Shown in pieces: positions 11,901 through 64,000 of a stretch of DNA of 64,000 nucleotides (the stretch's first letter is position 1; each line of letters starts with the position of its first letter). Source of the stretch: Diabrotica undecimpunctata. Lineage: Eukaryota; Arthropoda; Insecta; Coleoptera; Chrysomelidae. The notes beneath the pieces were generated by a model. That model had not been told where the DNA came from and did not search any database. It saw only the letters and a program-made list of their open reading frames with translations. Where the stretch lies: positions 18,316,741 to 18,380,740 of the forward strand of contig NC_092805.1 of assembly GCF_040954645.1 (NCBI RefSeq), read 5' to 3'. A program made the translations under genes and the position numbers.

Positions 11901-14900
11901 AAAATAAACGCTACTTGTGCGAACGGCACTCAGGGTTTGGTAGGAGAGCTGGGGTCGTGGATAAGTAAAAGACAAGGGGGTTTGGATTGGGGCAACTACA
12001 GAAAAAAGAAATAAAGGGTCATAAATCTCTTGGGACAAACAGAATGAAAATAAACCGGAAACACCTCAAGAAATTTAATATAGGGCGCCACTTGAGGTGC
12101 CTAATTATACCTATTAAAACCAGCTAGTTGTAACTGGAGATATAATTATTAAACATAAAAAAACATATCTTTTCCAAATGGAAACTCAAAAAAAAGGGTT
12201 AGTTAAAAAAAATAAACAAATGTTAAGAAACAAAATTTAACATTTATTTTTGTGTCACCACAAACAGTTACAAAACATAGAGAACACAAGAATGCTCAAA
12301 ATAAAAATACAAAATATTACCACAATAGTCGCAAAATACAAAAATACAAAAAAGACTTACATGTGTCATCTGTTTACAATTTCCAGGAGTTGGAGATACT
12401 ACAAAAACTTACAAAATTTAAATGTAAGCTAACCTTTCTTTTAAAGAAAACAAAACAAATCAAAAATGCTAAAACGGGCTGTCATAAATTAACTTTCAAT
12501 TTAAAACAAAACTGAATAAATACAATGACAGCTAAAAGCCAAACCATAAAATTTACTACTTTAAATATTACAATTACTTTTTTGTTATGAAAGCAATTAT
12601 TATGTTTATTTAAAAAATGTCTGCTTTACTTTAAATTTACACAAAAAAATGTTACCTGGATTTCACAATAACACGAAAACAAGTTCCTGGGGTTGGAAAC
12701 TGGAGTTGAATTCTGGACAGGAACACACGAACAAAAGGAACTGGATCTCACACTGCAAATTGGATCGACCATTTGAGGCCGAAGCCGGCACTGAGCACAA
12801 AACTTATGACTCTGCCTCTTTAACAACCGGAACAGGTAGAATTAGACGATTAACTGCTACTAAAATTGATTTCCATTACGTAAGACGAAGATTTCCCTGA
12901 AAAGGGACAAAAACAGAAAACTACAAATTCGACGTGAATTTGGACATGACGCTGGACCACTGGAGATCACCGCTCTTCACCGCGGCTCCAACGAAAGTGA
13001 CGAAATTATCTTTAAAAATTGCTCGCATAAGTTAGAACAAACAAAGCACTTAGGGTATAAACTAAACACAACGGAAATTAAGTCGTAAATTAATTTGAAA
13101 ACGCAATATCGGGCGGTTTGAACAAAGGAATATCAAAGAATTTGCGCCTGTGTCATAAATAAACAATAAAATGATTTATTATCAACGTCGGCGACCTAAA
13201 AGGAACGAAAGATTATAAATTGAAGGATACGAACTAAGAAACATTGAAAAAATTCTTCGTTATTATATTGCATATATAAGAGGATTTCAATTAACATATA
13301 TACGAGGGGATTCCAATAAATTTCAAATGCTACAGTAGTTTCGCAACAACTATTAAACCAAATATTAAATGAAGATTATTTCTGCGACATTAGTCCAGCA
13401 GTCAGAGAATTGACCCCTAAAAATCATACGAACAAACTGAATTTTGCCAAGAATATTAATTTTAGGACCCAAAAAAATATGCAAAAAAGTTTATTACTTT
13501 TGCCCCCAGGCTTCCCCTTGAAACCTCCTCCAGAGAGGGGTAAATCGATTTACCAAGAATCTGTACGTCGCAAAAAAAAATGTTTTAAATAAAAATTGTA
13601 GCTAAAATAATGTTCAACAAAAATGTTAATTACCACTTTTTAAGTAGAATGAACCGTTCTCTCAGAAAAAACGCTTGAAGAGACCGATCATTCTACACAA
13701 AAAGTGCTAATGAACATTTTTGTTTAAAATTATCTCAGCTACATCTTTTATTTAAAACATTTTTTCTGTGGCGTACAGATTATTGGTAAATCGATTTTTT
13801 TTTCGTTTTTGCCCCTTACTGGGGGGGGGGGGTTAGGGGGTAGCCCGGCGGTAAAAGTGGTAACCTTTATTGCATCTATTTGGAGTCTCAAAATTAATAT
13901 TCTCGGCAAAATTCAGCTTCTTTATATGGTTCTTAGAGGTTCAGTGGCATTTTCGGCTCTGACGACTGGAGTAGACACCGGCAACCCCATCTAAATGGGG
14001 GAGATACGGATCACAGGCGAAGGTATCACCACTCGTTTTGAGAATTCAGCAACATTGGCGCTAATAGTCGCTCCCATCTAAATTTCTGGTATGCAGTCAC
14101 CCGCAGGTGAACTATCCACGATCTCAACTCTTTAGTGTTGTTCCTGAATCTCACCCAAGCAGAATGCAATCAGTTGTAAAAGTCGTTACATTATTATTCA
14201 ACTATTCATTAATTTTTTTATTAACTTACAGTAAGTTGCAAGTATACAATTGTTTGTGCTGATGTATATTTCATATTGTGTCGCAAGTATTAACTTTATT
14301 GTATCTACGAAATTTCATTGATTCTATTTTTAATTTGCTTGTATAAATAATTATATTAATTATAACGAAATTTGCATTATAATAAGGTATTGCATTTTGT
14401 ATGCCATAACTAACAAGGTTTATTGATTTTAGTATTAATTAATTGAGCTCTTATTGATAATTTACTTTATTATTATATGTATTCAAATTTTTCACCTATG
14501 TATTACATGTATTACATTAATTACATATTGATTGCATTATGATTTTTGCATATTAGCCCAGTCTGGTTAAAAAAAAGGCGGAAAAATGTTTCGCAGATAT
14601 CTGAAGCTTTTAAGACATAGGTGGGGGATACTTGATGATGAATAGATGAAAAGATACTCCTAGTTTTACCTTGTGTTTTTTTAAGCAATAATTTATGGTC
14701 ACAATTTGATTTTTTGTCTATAAATTTTTTCCCTTATATTTTAAATAAACAATATTTATGTCATTTTTTATGTCAAGAATATCTTTATTTTCCCGTTTTT
14801 TTAATTAAAATTGATAAATAATTTACAGAGATATTTGCAAAAAAGCAGTTTTTTTTCACTAATTTATAAATTTCATTAATTTTTTTATTAACAAAATAAA

Positions 14901-17900
14901 ATGGTAATAATACATTTAAACATCAAGGAATTACCATATTTTAGATTTGTGTGAAATTTCCCCCCAATCAGTCAAATATTTTATAAGTTATTTAATTTGT
15001 TTATCCCTGAGGCTAATTATTTAAACTATTGAGCTTGCCCTATGCATGTTGCTAGACACATTCAGCAAATTTCATAGGATTCTTTAAGACTTAGACTAAC
15101 TCAGAAGTTAAATGCATATTGAGTTTTCATCAAAATTATTTACAAAATAAACGTTTGAAAAAGGGGTATGTTTTTTACTTATAAACAATTTTAATAACTT
15201 CTATATTTTTTAAGCTACAGACTTGTACGTACAACCATTGGATAGCTGGAAAAAAGCTCACATTAAAAAGTTGGTGACTATTTTTTAAAAAATCATATCT
15301 CCATTGTTTATAAACATTAAGAAGTAAAATTTGCACAAATTTTAAATGAAAATCTAAACTTTATATTGAAACTTATAGCTATAAAATTTATCTAATTTTT
15401 CGAAACGACGGTACTTTCGACAGATCGACATAGGAAAGTGGAGAGGATATCTGTTTCAGCTCCATTTTTTTTTTCGGCATCGGAACTTCAAATTGCAACA
15501 CGTAGGAAAAATTTACATTATCTCGGCTTCCTTTGCAGCTGCAAGCCTCTTTTTTTTAATTCTGGGGTAGCTCGTTGAAATATGAATAACTACATAGTTT
15601 TCACTCGCCGGAAAATATGGGAAAACTCGGAAAAATTGAGTCCATTTGAAATTCACCCTAAATACTTACTTTTTTTTAATTTGCTCGAAGAATAGTCTGT
15701 CGCAGTATTAATAATGATGACATAATTTTCACCCCCCCATAAATCTCGGAAAATCCCGGAAAATCAACATATGTTTTTTCATTTTATATTAATGATGTAA
15801 TAATACTTATATATTTTATAAATTAAATTTCAGGTAATTTTTTACACACTATATTATTATAATACTTATATTAATTATAATTGTTTGTATTTTTATAATT
15901 AACAATATTGATTTTTATTCTATTTTTCTTACAAATATGATATAAAAATATTAATCTAATCTGCCTTACTGCTTTGATAAAATAAGTCGATTTTTCCATC
16001 ACTTGCCTTATTAAATTTTGCAATGTTTATTAAACTTTACTTTTTTTATTTTTCTTTGCATACATTGGTTTAAAAGTTAAAATTTGGTTCATTTATTCGA
16101 CTTCACTGTCACGTCTGAACCTTTTTGTTGCAGGTTGTTTCTCTTCACTTATTAAGTCAGTCTTTCCATACATTAACATAATAATGGGCGATCTTAATGC
16201 CAAGGTGGGTCAAGGTAAGGTAGGGGAACAAGTAGGAAAATATGGGCTTGGAAACAGAAATGACAGAGGAGATCGATTGATTCAATTTTGCCAAAGTGAA
16301 GACTTCGTAATAACAAATACCTTTTTCAAATTACCTCCTCGACGGTTATATACATGGACATCTCCACAACATACCAAAGAAAAAAAAGTGAGAAATCAAA
16401 TAGACTATATTATGATAGCAAGGAGGTATCATAATGCTGTTAAATGTACTAAGACGTACCCAGGAGCTGATATAGGCTCAGATCATAACCCAGTAGTTAC
16501 TGTGATAGAGGCGAGGAAAAAAAAGATTAGAAGACCACACAGAAAGGTACTAGATTTAAATAAACTTAGAAACAAAAATATACGACAAGAAACAGGAGAA
16601 GAAATCAATGAAAACCTCCGTTTAGTGCAGCAACAAATTAACGATACAAACAACGTTAACCAAAAATTAAAGTACATAAATACAGCTATACAAACAGCAG
16701 GAAAGAAACATTTTACAAAAACAACAACAAAGAATAAGGGGTGGATGACACAAGATATACTAGACTTGATGGAACAAAGAAGAAAGATGAAGAATTACCC
16801 AGACAAATACAAAAAAATAAATAAACACATAAAAAAGGGAATAAAAGAAGCCAAAGAGGAGTGGATTAAAGAACAATGTGAAGAAATGGAAACCTATGAG
16901 AAAGAGTACGATGCGTTCAATATACACAAAAAAGTAAAAGAGATAACAGGAAGCATAAAGAAATGCCAAATAGGTTAACTTAAAGACAAAGATGGAAATC
17001 TTATTGTAGATCAAGAGAGTAAAATAAAAATATGGACAGAATACCTGAATGAATTATTTGAAGACGATAGAAACAACTTAACTCAGATAATCAATGCAAC
17101 TGGGCCAGACATATTGAAAGAAGAAGTAGAATACGCAATAACAAACGCTAAAAATGGAAAAGCAAATGGACCTGATGAAATTTCTACAGAACTGTTGAAG
17201 CTTTTAAATGATAAATCCGTAACCATAATATTAAATTTTGCAGCGAGGAGCTAAAACAGTTTCCCCTCTACTTTCCTATGTCGATCTTTCGAAAGTAACT
17301 TCATTTCGAAAGGTTTTAAGTTTCGAAAAATTGGATGAATTTTATAGCTATAAAATTTCTTAATGTTTATAAACAATGGAAATATAATTAACAAAAAAAT
17401 TGTCTCTAACTTCGTTCCTATTGTTTATAGAAGGTTTATTTTTTTTTAAAATGTGAGTTTTTTTACCAGCTATCTAATGGTTGTACGTAAAAGTCTGTAG
17501 CTTGAAAAATATAGAAGGTATTACAATTGTTTATAAGTAAAAAACATACCCCTTTTTCAAACGTTTATTTTGTAAATAATTTCGATGAAAACTTAATATT
17601 CATTTAACTTCTGTGATAGTATAAGTCTTAAAGAATCCTATGAAATTTGTTAAATGTGTCTAGCATCATTCATAGGGCAAGTTCAATGGTTTAAATAATT
17701 AGTCCCAGGGATAAACAAATTGAATAACTTTTAAACTATTTGACCGATCGGAGTGAAATTTCGCACAAATTTAAAGGACGATAATTCCTCAATGTTGAAA
17801 TGTACTAATAACATTTTGTTTTATTAATAAAAACATTATTTAAATTTATAAATTATTCCAAAAAGCTGCTTTTTTGCAAATATCTCCGTAAATTATTTAT

Positions 17901-20900
17901 CAATTTTAATTGAAAAAACGGGAAAATAAAGATATTTTTGATATAAAAAAATGGTATAAATATTGTTTATTTAAATTATAAGAAAAAAAATTATAAATAA
18001 AAAATCAAATTCTGACCATAAATTATTTAAAAAAAAAACGCAAGGTAAAAATAGGAGTATCTTTTTATTTATTCTTCATCTAGTAACCCCCACCTATGTC
18101 TTAAAAGCTTCAGATATCTGCGAAACATTTTGCCGTGAAATCGATGATTTTTGTATAACCAGACTGGGCTATATACACTATGCCAGCTTTTCCCAAACTT
18201 ATTTTTTAGTGGCCTGGTTATTTCTGTGCTTATCTTTTTTGCCACTAATTTTTTGCATACCCTGGTGTATGTGTGTGTGCAATAAAACATATTTAAATAT
18301 TTAATATTGTTTTATATATTTTAATAAACAATCATTAGCTTAAACAAAAATGTAATAAAACAAAATGAAAATCGAATACTTTATTAATGAGAAGTATACA
18401 GTTGTTCCTGGTTAACTAAAAATTTCATGTTTAAAGGAAAATATGTTAATTTTATCCTCAGGTCCGATTCGACTTCCAAACGGTTCCTATATATTTATTT
18501 TTTAGGAAAACCGATGTTGAAAACCATGCCTCATACCTACAGTTCGTAACAAAAGGAATTAGAAACTTTATCGCTTTTTCTGCTAAAACTGGGTACTCCT
18601 TAAGTCAACACAATGTCCAGTCAAATCGTTGACTGAGCGAACGAGCACACACAAACACTTCCGATCAGAGAACCGCTAGTCACGGCTGGGGACTCTCTGA
18701 TCGGAACACACGAATTTTTTAGGGACTTCAGTCCCCACGTCAAGTCAAGACAAACAAATAGAATCAGTAAAGTAAATAGGGAGAAAAGCCGACATTTAGG
18801 CTACCCCTACAGTCAGGTGGCATAACCACAACTACTAAAAACGGAAGGAACTTCATTACCCAAAGTACCTTAGTAAATTCTAAGATCATAAGCCTCGTCA
18901 CGTTAGTCATACGCTGAGGAGGGGTGGAGGAAAATCCTGGGGGTCAGATAGGTACCATCTCGACTAGCGAGATGAAAACGGTTTAATCTTCGAGCATGTG
19001 GATCCCACTCTTATATTGGTATACACATGGTCCTAGGGGTAGGGTTGATCACCTCGTGTGTTAATGTGTGTGTGTGGGTACTCCTCGCGACAAGACAACC
19101 AAAAATCTATCATTAGTTTTTTGTCAAATATGTCTTTGAGTGCCCTATCACACAGTAGTTCAATTAGTTACTCAACATCTAAATCCGGAAGTCCTGTCTC
19201 GAATTCTACAACCATTGTAAATGGATCCGGTATCCATGCTGTGTTGCTGTGGATGGGGACAAAATATTCCTTAATGTCATATTTAAATTGTTCAAGAAGT
19301 CTAAAATATCACAAAGATAGACTACCTTGATTAACCAATTGACATCATGAAAACTGTCTTAAAATTAAAATATTGCATTCCTCGCCGTTGGTGAATGTTG
19401 TTCTAAGAATATTGAAATTTCTTCCTTCAATTCAATAAGTCTTTTTAAGAAATTCCCTTTTGATAGCCAACGCACTTTGCTGTTTATTTCTATTTATGTT
19501 CACCTCCCAGTTTTTTGAACAAAGCAGATAATTCTTGTTGAGTGGGTGAGATTTTATGAAGTTTATAAATTTTTCACACTCTTGCATATCTTCGGTTAGA
19601 AGCAGTGGCATTTTGTACAGCTAATGCTTCTCTATGGATGCTACAAAAACACATTCTGGTGCTACGGCTTTGATCCTCGAAAAAAGCCCAGTACGAGCGT
19701 CTGCCATTGCCCATGCTCCATCGCTACTTAGTTTTTACACATTTATTCCATTCAATTCCATTGTCATTAATGTAGCTATCAATCAGATTAAATAATTCTT
19801 CAGCTATTGTTGTTGTTTACAGAGATTTACAAACTAGAAATTCTTCTTGAATAGTATTTTCAAAATCGTTTCTTACAAAACACATTAGATTCGCATTATC
19901 TTTCTGTACTTTCATCAATTTTGCAAGCAAAAATCGTTACACTCCTTTAAGTAACCTATAATAGTTTCTTCAATACTATCTGTCATCTCCACAATCCTAC
20001 GCTTCACTGTGTTACTTGGCATAGCCACCAAATTCACTTGCTTTTCCTGCTTTTTATAACTTATCTGAGATGCTACCATTTTCATTGCTGGAACTATTAA
20101 TTTCTCGGCAATTGTGTGAATATAACCGATTTCAGCAATTAATTTTGATATTTTATAAGAAGCCAGTACAAGGTTTTCAGATTGAGCGTCCTGAGAAAAA
20201 TTCAAAGATATAGACTTTTTGGTAGCTATTAATTCTCTTTTTATTTATATAAAAATCTAGTGGCTTAAAATACCACTGTATTCTCCTTGTGCTTCAATTC
20301 CAAGTGCTTTAATTTTGAAGGTTTCATAGACTCATTTGAAAGACTTCACAAAACCGAACTGTAGGTAATCTTCAGAATATTGCCTGGTCCATGACTCCCT
20401 CTTCTTTTTTGTGACAGTTGTAGATTGCGCATCGAGGGGCCGTTTGTAATTACCACTCGTACCTGCCTCTGGATGGACGTTACTCGACTGTCTATTATTA
20501 TTGACGCTCTTAGAACTTGTACCCGGCCGCAGATCACTCGACGGTCTGTTTATGCAAGTCTTAGAACTTGTACTTTGTTTTATAACAAATTTATCCATCG
20601 TCAAATTCAACGTAATCAATCTGCACGAAAAATACACACTCTCTGGCTTGACACCAAGCTTAAACTGAATGGAATAAAAGAAGCAGATTAAATAAAAGCG
20701 GTGGCGTTAGTCAGAGCGCGGTCTTAAAAAGCAAGATGTAAAACGGAGAGTCGAGGCGACCGAGCATTTTGCTTTCGGGGCCCGGTACCAGGTCGCTACA
20801 CACCATTTGGGAAACGCAGCGCTAAACGAAACAATAAACTAGCAATTGCATTCGTAAATTCTATTGTTAATAGTATGTTTTGTCACATGGCATATTTTAG

Positions 20901-35400: not shown

Positions 35401-38400
35401 GCTATTGTAAGTTTTGCTACTTTTGTAAAATAAGCAGGGCCAAACTCACGGTAAACTAAGATATGTTTAGGTAAGCTAAAGTTGTTAATAGAAAATTCGT
35501 GAATGAAATAAATGGTAATAATTCCTAAAATGCTTTTACACATAATACCGCAGTTAATAGGGAAAAAAATATGAAAAATATTCTACAGGTTTTTTAATGT
35601 TCTAAACGGTAGATAAGGGATAACTGATGATAATTCCTTGAAGAATTACAGCCAATTTTGCTTTGTTTATTTTTTAAAGAAAGATGAAGTTTGGAAAAAA
35701 TCATTTTTTTGCCTATTTTGTTCCTCGTGCATTTTAGGGAAAAATGTTTCAAATAAATGTTGCAGATCTTAAACAGTTTTTTAATTTTTTAGTTTGTAAA
35801 TTAAAATACATAAACAAATGACTGAGATAATTGCAAAAAACCCTTAATTGAGGCCCCTAGAACACAAGGGTGTAAGTGCAGTTGCTTATCACTTAGCAAC
35901 TGATATCTAACAACAGGCACGTACTTTTGGCTTCAAACTTTCTACATTAACAACAATAACACCATTAAAAATTACATGTCATTGAAAACATGCTGAAAAC
36001 TGAAAAAGTGCTACCTAGGTTTTTAAATTTATATCGAACTTTGAACAAAGATTTTTCAAAACTTTGTTTTTGGCCGTTACACCCCTTGTGTTCTAGGGGC
36101 CTCAATTGTGCACTAATTTATTAAATGTTCATAACTTTATTTTTTGCATAATGACGTCTAATATAACTACTTGAAATTATGTCGATTAATGAGTTATTTA
36201 AGTGTGCTACATTTCAACCAGATCAACTAAATATTTTATTACCTTTACTGAGAAAAGAATACCCCCGAAAAACAATTTTCAATCATCTTCATTTTCATAA
36301 TCTAGTTCATCTTCAGAGTCATCGTTTAATGAAATTCTAATAGGTTCAATGTCATCTTGAATGTTGTCTACTGTCCAAAAATTATTCTCCAATTTTATAA
36401 CATGGTTGACGTAATTTTTCCAATGTCCATTGTTCTGTACTTTATCATAACCTTCATAAATCAATGTTTTAACGTCGTTTTGTTTGAAACTTGAATTCTT
36501 AGAGGACACGTATCGTTTCAGTTCACTCCACACCATTTCTATTGGGTTCAGTTCACAGTGATAAGGCGGAAGTCTTAAGATATGTACATCTACGCGGCAT
36601 TGTTCGTCACTGTGATTCCTGTATTTTTCACCAATACAATCAATTTTGTATTTGTCATAAATATTTTTAAATACATTAGCAGTTTCCAGAAGTTCATTTT
36701 TTAAGTAATCTTCTTCAAAATAAATGTCCTTTTCATAGAGCCACTCCTTAATTTGACGTTTCACCCAATATTGTTTGGGAAAATTTAATTTCCTAGAGTG
36801 ATAAGATGCATTGTCCAAGATAATGACATTCTTTTTATTTTTTGGGAGATTCGGTATTAACATCTCTTCAAACCATTTTTCAAATAGATCTCCGTCCATC
36901 TCTTCATGGTAATCTTCAGCACCTTTTTTGGCAAGAAAAGTGATGTCAGCACCTTCAACAGATCCGTCTTTGTTTCCTGCATGGACTAAAACAAATCTTG
37001 GTCCTTTTCGGGTCGGAGTTTTTAAACCTGTGGTAAGTCCATTTACGAAAGCCTGTCGGCTATTTTTTATTGTTGTATCTTGCCATACTTGCCCATTGGT
37101 TATTCCAGTATTAACCCATGATTCGTCCATATAAATGATATTGGCTCCTTCGTTCCTCAGTTTCTTTATTTCCCGGAGATAGTGACGCCTCCAAGCGACT
37201 ATTTCTTGTTTTTCTATTAATATTGAATTTCTACCTTGTTTGCCATATATAAAACCCATGTCGTGCAATAGTCTTCTCAACGTACTCTTGGAAAAATTCG
37301 GAAGATGCTCCATTTGCTTAATTTTTTCTAGTACTACGTCAAGGGTTGGAGGAATATTGTCCATAAAAAAACCGTGCACTACTTGTCTTATTCTAGACCG
37401 AGTTGCTTCATCATATCTATTCTCACGACTATTCAAATAACCGGTTCTTTTTTTTCTTATAGGAGTTACGAGTGGACCATTTTTACTTTCACTTCTATAT
37501 CGGAATATCGTTCGCTCAGAGACTCCAGTCATAGCAGAAACTTCCCGCACTATTGTTGATACACTTTTATCATTATTACTGTTTGATAAATACTTAAAAA
37601 CATTTAACACTATTTTTTTGCATTCACTATTTACCAAATTACCGTTTTTGAATTTTATTACACTCGCGGCCATTTTGACACTGACACGACACAAACGTCT
37701 GATATCAACTGAAAATTCTTTTAATGACTCTCAAGTATTTACCTGAATTTATAATTGCTGGCATTAGACAATAATTTTGAATTTATAAATAGGTATATTT
37801 TTTTAATTCTAAATTATTTTTTAATGTCTGTAACTGTAAATGCAGGTAGAGAAAGTGTGTCATTAAAAGGACATTAAGATCAAAAACGGATTATACAAAT
37901 AATTATTTCATTTCCACGAATTGTAAACAATTTTGAACAGAAGATATAATTCCGAAAAGACCAGATTTCCGAAATATAACTTTCTATTTTTAAAATACCA
38001 ACAGAAAAATTATATAATTAAAAAAATGTAGTATTTTTCCGTTTCACATTCATAAATATTTCCGAAATTATAATTCTTTTATAGGAGCCGGCCCATAACG
38101 TACGATTGTAGGTACGATTAAAAACTGACAACAATGTAGTTATTTCTGGCATATAGAAAGTACAGGCCTATCTCTGGAACGCTGCCATCTGAATGTGAAT
38201 TTATCTATAGATACTTAAGCAGGACATATCTGTAAAGCGGATTGTATTGGTGTTTTCCAAAATCAAAATTTATGAAGAAATTTAATTATAGAAGTTGGCC
38301 ATGCATACAGGTTGTAATGAATATTTGAAAGTGCTATTTCTACCTACAATTTTTATAATTTATTTTATATTTACCTCAATATCCTCTGGGTTCACCAAGC

Positions 38401-57954: not shown

Positions 57955-58037
57955 AATTTTATTTATTTTATTTTATTTTACTTTCTTTAATTTTATATAA
58001 CTTTATTCAATTTTATTTAATTTTATTTAATTTTAAT

Positions 58038-58401
58038 TAATTTAATTTAATTTAATTTAATTTAATTTAATTTAATTTAATTTAATTTAATTTAATTTAA
58101 TTTAATTTAATTTAATTTAATTAAATTTAATTTAATTTAATTTAATTTAATTTAATTTAATTTAATTTAATTTAATTTAATTTAATTTAATTTAATTTAA
58201 TTTAATTTAATTTAATTTAATTTAATTTAATTTAATTTAATTTAATTTAATTTAATTTAATTTAATTTAATTTAATTTAATTTAATTTAATTTAATTTAA
58301 TTTAATTTAATTTAATTTAATTTAATTTAATTTAATTTAATTTAATTTAATTTAATTTAATTTAATTTAATTTAATTTAATTTAATTTAATTTAATTTAA
58401 T
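58038..58401. repeat. (TTTAA)n pentanucleotide tract
   Basis: About 73 consecutive TTTAA units with a single irregular unit near 58120. Degenerate TTTTA/TTTTAA units flank it from 57955 and to 58420. Confidence 0.97.
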
Positions 58402-58559
58402 TTTATTTTATTTAGTTTTATTGAAAAAATAGGTAAAAACTGTCTAGATAGTCTGCTAATTAAAATAAATCGGTAAATAATGCGGATTATTTAAAATGCG
58501 GAAAATAAATAATAAATTCCTAATTAAAAGCTAATTTCTTGCAGAAATAAAAATGAAAT

Positions 58560-59430
58560 ATTTAACTGAGACCCACCGAATGGAGTTTAATGATGATCGG
58601 TTACGGGAAGAATTGTAGAAGTCAAGTTGAAGTAGAAAACTTATTTAATTAGAGGTATCCTCAGTTGCCTAATATTGCACAAGGTACTGTGTCTAAAATA
58701 TATGCACAATTCAGAGAACTTGGACATTAAAACCATTAAAAAGAAAACCAAACTTCATTGAAGATGAGGTGAAAGTAAATATTTTGGTAAGTATCGCAGA
58801 GAATGCAAAGTCAAGTTCACGTCAAATTGCAAGTCAAAATAATGTGAGTTACAAAACTGTCCTAAGGTGTCTTCTTGAAGAAAAACTTCATACATATAAA
58901 TTGACTTTTGTGCAGGAGCTAACAGAAAACGATCCAGATCGTAGAATGGATTTTTGCGAAATGTCCTATATTTGTAGATTTTAATTTGACAGTCGAAAAA
59001 TATTTAAGCATGCTAAGAGACGATGTTCTTCCTCAGTTAGCTAACTTGTATCCCAATCCAATAGATCCGACCCTACCGCATGAAATTGTCTGGTTCTATC
59101 AAAACGGTGCAACACCCCATTATGCTTTAATGGTGAGAAATTACTTGAATGAAATATTCTTCAATAAATGGATTAGACGAAGGGGTACTAGTGAGTGACC
59201 AGCTAGGTTGCCGGATCCTATTTGGTTTTTTTTCTTGAGGTTATCTCAAGAACAAAGTATATGCAACACAACCAACTAGCATTGAAGACCTCAAAGAAAG
59301 GATAACTACAGAAATACGGAATATTTCACCTCAAACTTTAAACAAAGTTCGGGACGAGTTTTATAGGAGACTGTGTTATTGCCAACAACAAGGTGGAGAA
59401 CATTTTGAGCATTTATTTTAATGTAATCCA
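58560..59430 (+). mobile_element. mariner/Tc-like transposase pseudogene with internal deletion
   Basis: The plus strand starts RMEFNDDRLREELXKSS-like and includes NILVSIAENAKSSSRQIASQ and YKTVLRCLLEEKLHTYK (helix-turn-helix), then ENDPDRRMDFCEM. After a junction near 58975 it resumes YLSMLRDDVLPQLANLYPNP and VWFYQNGATPHYALMVRNYL, the second motif with N where the catalytic Asp is expected. Then RRGTSEXPARLPDPIW and ITTEIRNISPQTLNKVRDEF. The part with the first catalytic Asp is missing, so it is dead. Confidence 0.82.
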
Positions 59431-60573
59431 ATCAATTACCTCGGGTATTTTATGAATTAATTGTCTTGAAGAAAATTATACTTAATTTCAAAATTTCACC
59501 TTGTATTATTCATAATGATCCTACACGATATAGTTCGTTGAGATCAGGTTGTTAAGAAGCTTTTAAAAACAAAAATATACATGCGTGGATCACCCTGTGC
59601 ATTCAAATTTATGTTTAAAAAGGGCACATTTAAATTTAAAAGTTCAGTGGAAAATTCTAAATTCTTGAATTCCTGCTTCCCTAATTATTTTACACCAAAA
59701 GGCAAGAAAAAATATTTGTAGAGGACTGAAATATGTATCGAAAATAAATGTTAAAATTGTTCTACGAATTAAACGTATTCCAACATTTTGCAAGATCCCC
59801 AGTCATATTAGGTAAAAAAAGGGGTCAACCTCGGAATGAAAGATAATAAGCTGCAAATTGGTATGAACCTTTGTTTTGTCATTCTAAATGTTGTCTCAAA
59901 AGTCACAATCGTTATCGTGTCCGCGTCTCAAGATATTCAAGGTCAAAGGTCACAAAAATCGGTTTTTCGCGAATATCTGGCTTCCTATCGGTTAAATGAG
60001 ATTTGCATTTATTATAAAAGTTGTAGGCTATAAAATTCCCTACAACTTTTGTTTAAACTTTTTTTTCATACGACCAACCGTTTTGAAGGTAGAGCGCGAA
60101 GAGTGCACATCGTACAGTCATATACGGCCTAATGCAAGGTCAAGCGTGAGTTATGCTTATCAATACGTTATAAAGTCAATTATTTACTTGGAAATTATAA
60201 ATATTAAACAATGCCTATTATTTATGTACTAACTATTAATTATTTATATTTAATTAAAGTAAGTAACTTGATTATTTATATATAATTATTCATATTTAAC
60301 TATTTAAGTATAAAATATTATTAATTCTGGATTATATATTTTAGTTTTATTTTAAGTTAACACGACATTATATATCTTTTCTTTAAAACGCGTAAATTTC
60401 TCAATACTTATATACCTGGAAATACTTGTCCCTACCCTATGCCCTTTTCTATTCATTGCCGGGACAGATGTTCTATAGTATTCAAGGCCACTCTCTCCAC
60501 TTTGTATGAGTCAAGATTATTCGTTAGTTTGAAATTGTACCGTTGCAACTACGGACGTACGGTTTTAAGAGCT
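59431..60573. other. Upstream flank of the giant open frame
   Basis: No gene recognised. AGTTGTAGGCTATAAAATTC and CCTACAACTT near 60020-60050 form a short hairpin. From about 60380 composition becomes less AT-rich, as expected for a leader or promoter. A weak TATA-like word TACTTATATAC lies at 60405. Confidence 0.4.
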
Positions 60574-63500
60574 ATGGCTGATTTGTGTTTTATATGTGAT
60601 AAGAAACTTTCAGAAGGTGTTTCTGTGAATGTCGTACGTGGTTTACAAACTTTAAAAACTGCAAGTATTGAAAGAAATGATGGACATATAGACTATTTAA
60701 ATACTTTAAGTTCTGTAAATGTGCATTCCGAGTGTCGAAAAGTGTACACGAGTAAAAATGTTATTATTGCATCAAAACGACGCACAGATGAGAGTGAACC
60801 TTCAACGTCAAGTGCACCTCGTAAAAAACGAAATGAAGTCTTTGATTTTGGAAAGTTATGCTTATTTTGTGGCCAAGAAGCTGATGAAATAGCAGAAAAG
60901 AAAAAAAAATTAAAGTATAGACGGACAATAAGTAATGTAAGTACTCTTGCATTCAAAGACAACGTAATTAAGAGAGCAGAAGAACGAAACGATTCCTTAG
61001 GAGAATTAGTAAAGGAACGTATATATTACGAGTATGATTTGATCGCTGCTGAAGCAAAGTATCATACTATTTGCTATACCAACTTTTTAACCCGAGTACC
61101 ATCTGCAGATAAAATGCCTCGCCAAGATGATCAAGTCACTCAAGCAATGAAGGAGATTTTTTGTTATATAGAAAATAATGAAGATTCTCAATTTACTTTG
61201 AAAGAACTTAAAGATGTCCCTACGGAATACATACCTGACGATAAGACAATTATTACAAAATTACAACAAAAGTATTTAACTGATATAATAATCACAAAAA
61301 AAATTGGATCATTTACAATTATATCTTTCCGTGATACACAGCTTAACGTATTATCAAGAGCTTGGTACGAAAATAAAAAAAGTACTCCTGTAGAAGAACG
61401 TCTACGGATTGTAGAAGCTGCTGCGGCTATTATTAGGGAAGACATCAGATCATCTGTAGTTGAAACAAAAACGTATCCACCTCCGAATAAAATGCTAGAT
61501 TGTATTAATGAAGAAATACCAAAAACATTATCACATTTTTTGGAAGAAATAATATTAAAAAATAGAAAAGGACAAGTAGATCATTTAAAAACGAAATGCA
61601 CATCTATTAGCCACGCAATAATGGCTTCGATACAAGAACGTTCATTTTCATCACAGCTACTGTTGGGCCTTTCCGTATTTCTTCACAGAAGATATGGGTC
61701 TAAAAAATTGTTGGATGTTTTATCATCTTTAGGATTTGCTGCATCATATAGTAATACCATACAGTATGAAGTTTCATCAGTTTACCATCCACAACCTCGT
61801 ATTTTACCATCAGAGTCTGGTGCGTTGGTACAATATGTTGGAGACAATGCAGATATTAATGTCAGTACTCTTGACGGTAATAATACTCTTCACGTTATGG
61901 GAATGATAAAAATAATTACTCCGAAAGATGCTGTAATTTATGATGATCGCATAAAAAAATGTACAACTAAACCGAGTGCAAAAGAGTTAGCAGCAATATC
62001 ACATGTATCTCTTTTAGCATATGAAAAGCCAGTTGTACCTGGGTACAGCAAGATTCAAGTCCAAAATCTACATGATGATCAAGTACTGATTGAAAAAAAA
62101 TTTAATGCAGTTGATTTGTTGTGGTTATACGGAAAATGGAAGAATCTTTCACCGTTGCCAGGGTGGAATGGCTATCTTCAACAACTTACGAAAAATAATC
62201 AAAATTTTTCAACTTCTCAGGTTATATTTCTACCTTTCATTGATCATCCTGCCAGTAATTTAGACACAATTTATACAACTTTACATAGTGCTATAAATAT
62301 TGCCAAGTCACATCAACAAAAAACGTGCATAATTACATTTGATCAGCCCCTGTACTCAAAAGCACGTGAAATGGTTGCTGCGTCAGATGCAAACTCAGAC
62401 TTGTCTAAAACAGTTGTCAAACTTGGAGGATTTCATATGCTCATGTCTTTTCTTGGATGCATAGGACATGTAATGGACGGTAGTGGTCTCAAGGAAGCTT
62501 TAAGTAAAATATATGCTACAAATTCGGTCGACAAAATGTTGAATGGTCACGCTTATGCAAGAAGTATCAGAGGCCATATATTATTACGACTTGCATTATC
62601 AATAAAGATTTTTGAAGAGATGAAAATTGAAAATTGTGTGTTAGATGAGTTAATTGAACAGATAACTAGTCGCGATGTTTCCTACGAAGATGTTGAAGGA
62701 TGTACGAGCAGCTCCAACTCGTTAATTGATCAATTTCAGGATAAACTAAAAGAATTAAAAGCTCGAGGTCCCACGGCACAGTTATGGGTGCAATATTTTG
62801 AAATGGTATCAATAGCCCTAGATTTCATTCGCGCTGAAAGGCTGGGACTTTTTCAAGAACATTTGGATGCAGTGCGAAAAATGCTGCCCTATTTTCATGC
62901 TGGTGGTCATTTCCTATATGCGAAATCAGCTCATTTGTATCTTCAAGATATGTTAAAACTTGAGGAGACAATGGATCAACAGGCTTTTGAGAACTTTAAA
63001 AACGGATTCTTTACTGTAAAACGAACAGAAAAATTCAATTCTGGTACATGGACAGACATGGTAATCGAGCAAAGTCTGATGAAATCTATGAAGACAGAAG
63101 GAGGAGTATCTCGAGGCCGAAGTACACAAGAAAGTGTTCTATGTAAGTGGGTATATGCTATGTATGCCACGAATACAATTTGTGAAGAAATTGAACGGTT
63201 TTGTAACATTTCTTTCGATTCTGTGGACCAACATGTTGATGCTAGAGATTCACGAATAAAAAGGGATGATACTGATGTAAATGAACTGGTTGGTTGGTTT
63301 ACGCTTCATAATCCCTTTCCAAATACGAATCAGTTGGTATCCTTAGCTTCAGGAATCGTTGGAAATGACCAAATTAATTGTCACCGAGCCCATGAAATCG
63401 GATTGCAATCTATGGTAAAGATAACTGGTTTGAACTTCAACGAAATAAAGTTAAAACGCGTCGATAAGGTTTTACCGCTTTCAGCCATTAACAAATCTGT

Positions 63501-64000
63501 CAAAATTAATGATTGTAAAGTTTCTATAGATCCAATGTTACTTTTCCAGAGAATAACTGTAAGCAAAAAATTTGAAAGTAATTTACAAGAATATCTTCAG
63601 TATGAACTAAGCCCGTATCCGACATCTTTATTTGATAGTAATGGCATGAGAAAAACCACGAAAGCAACATTATATGACAATATGATGCCTGTCGTTATCG
63701 ATCTTGATGAAAATAATGTAACATACATCATCGATGGTGGATTTCTTCTGCATCGCGTCGTATGGAGCAAAGACGATACTTTCTCTATTATTTTAAATAA
63801 GTACATTAAATATTTACAAACACATTATGGCTCAGCAATTGTTGTTGTATTTGACGGATATTCGGACTATAGTAAAAATATTAAAGCACTGGAACAACAA
63901 AGAAGAACTGCTGCACTTTCAAAATCATATGAAGTTTGTTTTGACGAAACAATGGTTGTGCCAATCAGTCAAGAAAAATTTTTATCAAATCGGTCTAATA
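60574..64000 (+). CDS. Giant uncharacterised protein: two CxxC/HxxC modules, FEN1/XPG-PIN-like motifs; open at right edge
   Basis: ATG at 60574 opens a frame of 1,142 codons with no stop and no intron up to the edge, exceptional against the neighbouring relics. Module 1 has C5, C8, H51, C54. Module 2 has C96, C99, H164, C167. Both share TL...R.D...L before the H-x2-C, so they look like a duplicated zinc-binding unit. The long middle (about 180-1040) contains blocks such as CIITFDQPLYSKAREM, LGGFHMLMSFLGCIGHVMDG and MVIEQSLMKSMKTEGGVSRG. I remember similar blocks from multi-copy uncharacterised invertebrate proteins, but no function is known to me. At the end VTYIIDGGFLLHRVVW (D1054) and IVVVFDGYSDYSKN then EQQRR (D1094) resemble the first Asp and the VFDG...K..E..RR motif of FEN1/XPG-type PIN nucleases. 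The remaining acidic residues would lie beyond the window. A TE-derived or mobile origin is inference. Confidence 0.8.
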   Translation, partial: MADLCFICDKKLSEGVSVNVVRGLQTLKTASIERNDGHIDYLNTLSSVNVHSECRKVYTSKNVIIASKRRTDESEPSTSSAPRKKRNEVFDFGKLCLFCGQEADEIAEKKKKLKYRRTISNVSTLAFKDNVIKRAEERNDSLGELVKERIYYEYDLIAAEAKYHTICYTNFLTRVPSADKMPRQDDQVTQAMKEIFCYIENNEDSQFTLKELKDVPTEYIPDDKTIITKLQQKYLTDIIITKKIGSFTIISFRDTQLNVLSRAWYENKKSTPVEERLRIVEAAAAIIREDIRSSVVETKTYPPPNKMLDCINEEIPKTLSHFLEEIILKNRKGQVDHLKTKCTSISHAIMASIQERSFSSQLLLGLSVFLHRRYGSKKLLDVLSSLGFAASYSNTIQYEVSSVYHPQPRILPSESGALVQYVGDNADINVSTLDGNNTLHVMGMIKIITPKDAVIYDDRIKKCTTKPSAKELAAISHVSLLAYEKPVVPGYSKIQVQNLHDDQVLIEKKFNAVDLLWLYGKWKNLSPLPGWNGYLQQLTKNNQNFSTSQVIFLPFIDHPASNLDTIYTTLHSAINIAKSHQQKTCIITFDQPLYSKAREMVAASDANSDLSKTVVKLGGFHMLMSFLGCIGHVMDGSGLKEALSKIYATNSVDKMLNGHAYARSIRGHILLRLALSIKIFEEMKIENCVLDELIEQITSRDVSYEDVEGCTSSSNSLIDQFQDKLKELKARGPTAQLWVQYFEMVSIALDFIRAERLGLFQEHLDAVRKMLPYFHAGGHFLYAKSAHLYLQDMLKLEETMDQQAFENFKNGFFTVKRTEKFNSGTWTDMVIEQSLMKSMKTEGGVSRGRSTQESVLCKWVYAMYATNTICEEIERFCNISFDSVDQHVDARDSRIKRDDTDVNELVGWFTLHNPFPNTNQLVSLASGIVGNDQINCHRAHEIGLQSMVKITGLNFNEIKLKRVDKVLPLSAINKSVKINDCKVSIDPMLLFQRITVSKKFESNLQEYLQYELSPYPTSLFDSNGMRKTTKATLYDNMMPVVIDLDENNVTYIIDGGFLLHRVVWSKDDTFSIILNKYIKYLQTHYGSAIVVVFDGYSDYSKNIKALEQQRRTAALSKSYEVCFDETMVVPISQEKFLSNRSN

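Follow-up and report, generated by a model that had tools for sequence, protein, structure and literature searches.

Transposons of the Academ superfamily encode a nuclease of the XPG type. Two branches, AcademX and AcademH, are set apart in PMC10045372 by their target duplications, which are 3 or 4 bp long in the former and 9 or 10 bp in the latter, and this difference is tied there to the encoding of a nuclease versus a helicase. The curated Academ elements of bivalves have a mean length of 5565 bp (PMC10294476), and the superfamily has been recorded in Lepidoptera and parasitoid wasps, with reports of horizontal transfer. The Academ literature drawn on comprises PMC10045372, PMC10294476, PMC5704228, PMC10799480, PMC9783078, PMC9587614 and PMC5791352; the mentions of Academ in the last four are not decisive, and a search of the literature collection used, pairing Academ with XPG, nuclease or flap endonuclease, found no paper on the subject. 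Here we describe a long open reading frame at the right-hand edge of a 64,000-nucleotide stretch (the window) of contig NC_092805.1 of the beetle Diabrotica undecimpunctata. We hold with considerable confidence that a DNA transposon of the AcademX branch is present here and that the frame covers the 5' part of its large gene.

The predicted folds place a DDE transposase core and a FEN-type nuclease in one element, which is the combination by which AcademX is described. Moreover, the occurrence in Lepidoptera and parasitoid wasps, the size of about 5.5 kb (as given for bivalves) and the reported horizontal transfer all match. AcademH belongs to the same superfamily but is described in PMC10045372 as carrying a helicase and making duplications of 9-10 bp; no helicase was detected by Pfam in the six family proteins scanned, i.e. 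the window protein (P0001) and its relatives P0002, P0003, P0007, P0022 and P0030. The assignment to Academ is probable but short of proof, as it is based on the agreement of architecture, hosts and size with published descriptions. The earlier note on this DNA, made from the sequence alone, had attributed the frame to an uncharacterised mobile element. A mobile origin is very probable, but the element probably belongs to a type already characterised, because the pairing of a transposase with a nuclease is the trait given for AcademX in PMC10045372. The frame is real and well conserved, and most of what is seen is accounted for by its being a further member of a transposon group that is already known. 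Of interest are the structural reading and the identities across insect orders; the system itself is not of a new kind.

Translation of positions 60574-63999 (+ strand) yields 1142 residues without a stop, in agreement with the uninterrupted frame of the earlier note, and the frame continues to the window edge. It is the longest of the 10 open reading frames of at least 150 residues in the window, the runner-up having 471. An earlier in-frame ATG is located upstream at 60439; the ATG at 60574 is nevertheless the likely start, because four relatives (P0002, P0003, P0005 and P0022) begin at the corresponding MADLCF or MANLCF. Five longer members of the family (P0003, P0007, P0009, P0022 and P0030) reach 1377-1508 residues, and therefore about three quarters of the gene, counted from its 5' end, should lie in the window, or 1142 of about 1,480 expected codons. 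Neither tblastn nor self-blastn revealed a further copy within the window, and scans of the window with Rfam and for transfer RNAs gave no match.

The protein belongs to a large family: in a search with residues 380-1142, 131 proteins matched at an expect value (E) of at most 0.001, the 7993 candidates sharing the most words having been scored. Among the best 120 of these 131 matches 31 are named, including proteins from Euphydryas editha, Arctia plantaginis, Diatraea saccharalis, Brassicogethes aeneus, Aquatica leii, Phaedon, Photinus, aphids, ants, parasitoid wasps, thrips, a mayfly and the mollusc Patella caerulea, in addition to one rust-fungus record. Alignment A2 combines 91 of the 120 with the window protein and alignment A3 combines 87 with it; the 29 and 33 proteins left aside were excluded by hand and were mostly short or chimeric models, and some interrupted models (P0011, P0024) were retained. 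In Pfam scans of the window protein and of P0002, P0003, P0007, P0022 and P0030 all models stayed below their cut-offs; the best scores on the window protein (DUF4960, E 0.13; DUF4674, E 0.96) were taken as chance. The CXC label attached to the C-terminus of some relatives stems from UniRef names, and a CXC domain was not detected by Pfam on P0003. Relatives were found neither in the IMG/VR viral contigs (searched with A2 and P0001) nor in the GTDB genomes (searched with A2), so that carriage by viruses is unsupported in these collections. The rust-fungus record (P0048, Austropuccinia psidii) shows 40-42% identity with the window protein or P0003 and is placed, with weak support, among the insect sequences in the tree described below; it is either a contamination or another transfer.

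The central part of the protein, some 450 residues (418-873; 61825..63192, + strand), is predicted to adopt the RNase H-like fold of a DDE transposase core, and it is this core that points to a DNA transposon. The candidate catalytic residues, all on the + strand, are D424 or D427 (61843-61854), D590 (62341-62343) and E832 (63067-63069). They are almost invariant (D424 in 87 of 88 sequences, D427 and D590 in 88 of 88, E832 in 87 of 87) and occupy the positions expected of a D, D, E triad in the predicted fold, with D424 and D427 in a strand, D590 directly after a strand and E832 in a helix. The predicted secondary structure of residues 639-812 (62488..63009, + strand), between D590 and E832, is all-helical, and this segment may interrupt the RNase H topology as an insert. 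In its fold, with helices inserted ahead of the final acidic residue, the predicted core resembles those of the Drosophila P element, Transib, hAT (Hermes) and RAG1, whereas the fusion to a FEN/XPG-type nuclease sets the window family apart from all four.

The nearest solved transposase fold is that of the P element. This would also suit a DNA transposon of the same architecture from a superfamily separate from Academ, which captured its XPG/FEN nuclease independently, as would the lack of any Pfam model at cut-off on the six scanned proteins and the fact that Academ was compared by description and not by sequence. Such a separate origin seems improbable to us, since the AcademX description printed in PMC10045372 and the named Academ hosts fit, and since the helix-turn-helix and GTP-binding insertion domains of the P element were absent from the same six proteins in the Pfam scan. 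Among the eight proteins scanned, P element Pfam domains were present only in two gene models of Arctia plantaginis, P0010 and P0055. In these models pieces of a transposase of the window family are fused with P element-like and piggyBac-like domains; probably they are nested transposons annotated as one gene.

The C-terminal end of the frame (63658..63999, + strand) constitutes the first part of a predicted FEN1/XPG-type nuclease, the remainder of which lies beyond the window. The motifs IIDGGFLLHR and VVFDGY...K..EQQRR, from which the earlier note derived a C-terminal nuclease, are present, and their aspartates D1054 (63733-63735) and D1094 (63853-63855) are 40 residues apart, as had been described, and nearly invariant (82 of 83 and 80 of 80 sequences, respectively). 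As checks the note had proposed a prediction of the PIN fold and an inspection of the downstream sequence for further acidic blocks, and, applied to relatives, neither of them refutes its nuclease claim. For the relative P0006, whose sequence from residue 648 on is the counterpart of the window protein from residue 1029 on, a PIN-type FEN/EXO1 fold is predicted with confidence; the window covers only the first part of this domain. The blocks DxD, GxDxD and GCD are present in the relatives. In the numbering of P0006 the family retains seven acidic active-site positions, namely D673 (91/92 sequences), D713 (91/91), D786 (86/89), D788 (89/89), D810 (89/89), D812 (89/89) and D870 (87/87), which we take to be the seven acids of FEN1; only the first two fall inside the window. 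Identity to the FEN1/XPG/EXO1/GEN1 family is 10-15% in the listed alignments, and the window family differs from it by the fusion to a transposase.

The confident prediction of a FEN/EXO1-type fold could by itself suggest an ordinary host nuclease for DNA repair or RNA processing that happens to carry zinc modules. We regard this as hardly credible, because the central transposase-like core and the mixing of insect orders in the family are unlike a repair gene, and because no sequence relative was found among the solved structures: the single protein had no match in the PDB sequences at E <= 10 and profile A2 had one only, which was unrelated (E 8.1). The RNA-processing role allowed for by the earlier note found no support.

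Toward the N-terminus of the putative AcademX protein two C-x2-C...H-x2-C patterns were observed, as had been noted before. Module 1 (C5-x2-C8 ... H51-x2-C54) spans 60586..60735 and module 2 (C96-x2-C99 ... H164-x2-C167) spans 60859..61074, both on the + strand. H51, C54, C96, C99, H164 and C167 are invariant wherever the sequences reach (63 to 71 of the 88 rows of A3), C5 and C8 being outside this count. The description of the modules as duplicated stands at the level of profiles, where hhalign relates module 1 to module 2 with a probability of 92% (E 6.6e-7), and finds no support at the level of the single sequence, where 139 of 500 shuffles score equally high. Residues 183-255 (61120..61338, + strand) possibly form a winged-helix DNA-binding domain.

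Identities that cross insect orders were observed. The window protein is identical to a protein of Euphydryas editha at 1135 of 1142 residues, to a Diatraea gene model at 697 of 747 and, over two segments, to an Arctia plantaginis model at 449 of 451, the last being fused to other transposon pieces. In another lineage, according to a direct comparison of 12 family proteins (pairs with at least 150 aligned residues), the protein P0011 of the beetle Brassicogethes shares 594 of 643 residues (about 92%) with the wasp Cotesia glomerata, 644 of 700 (92%) with the moth Eumeta and 396 of 455 (87%) with a second, chimeric Eumeta model; the two Brassicogethes lineages share only 555 of 1066 (52%) with each other. 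A FastTree tree of 32 sequences (the window protein, 28 of the 31 named matches and three others, with P0055, P0073 and P0119 omitted and the root placed on Patella by choice) grouped this second Brassicogethes lineage with Cotesia and Eumeta with a support of 0.98. Judged from the proteins, horizontal transfer has probably carried the family from one insect order to another.

The near-identity to a butterfly protein, the single long stop-free frame and the NCBI gene models of the family in several insects might bring to mind a domesticated host gene derived from such a transposase, acting as a single-copy nuclease or regulator. This is very unlikely in our opinion: the pattern of identities departs from the relationships of the hosts, the residues of the transposase as well as the acids of the nuclease are retained across the family, and soon after residue 1142 the butterfly protein P0002 parts from the other members, as a mobile copy in decay would. 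As for the transposon itself, the nearly identical proteins in Diabrotica, Euphydryas and Arctia (over the parts kept by its gene model), together with a sister lineage common to a beetle, a parasitoid wasp and a bagworm moth at about 92%, could tentatively be seen as one nuclease-carrying family in a very recent, perhaps ongoing, horizontal invasion of insects. The built-in FEN/XPG nuclease might then lessen the dependence on host repair and ease moves from order to order.

A possible division of labour follows the domain order. The zinc modules and the winged helix would bind the element ends, and the DDE core, on the evidence of its predicted fold and conserved residues, would cut and join the DNA. 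The FEN1/XPG-type nuclease could, following the Academ literature, process the excised or integrating ends, by trimming flaps or cutting a strand, and thereby help to set the short target duplication of 3-4 bp, whereas the Cys-rich C-terminal segment of the relatives may be another DNA-binding part. The structural reading of the group joins a P element-like DDE core to an EXO1/FEN1-like nuclease, and therefore single-residue substitutions offer a test of what the nuclease does in transposition. In addition, the analysis suggests that large insect genes filed as 'uncharacterized' or 'Tesmin/TSO1-like CXC domain-containing' are transposon proteins, and the near-identities across insects add cases for tracing transposon transfer, parasitoid-moth pairs included.

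The sequence upstream of the gene contains a long, near-perfect array of 5-base units of AATTT type (58030-58410) and, in a non-coding stretch, a perfect 12-bp inverted repeat with an 11-base gap (60016-60050), possibly a subterminal hairpin belonging to the element. The 5' end of the element was not found in a repeat scan of 59430-60600, which alone cannot identify an end. Elsewhere in the window an intact reading frame of 471 residues (36279-37694, - strand) encodes a Tc1/mariner-like transposase, with a closest match of 84% (Logan). Among the best 120 of its 700 matches the named ones reach at most 56%, the best by E-value being from Macrosteles (46% over 81% of the query) and the next from Gonioctena (56% over 63%). 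An RTE-type endonuclease frame (16184-16978, + strand) is flanked by an inverted repeat of about 0.9 kb with 81% identity (14554-15463 / 17247-18171, self-blastn). Among the best 120 of the 570 matches to this frame, the closest is a JGI protein (95%), the best named one by E-value is from Sitophilus (48% over 99% of the query) and the highest named identity is to Euphydryas editha (63% over 44% of the query).
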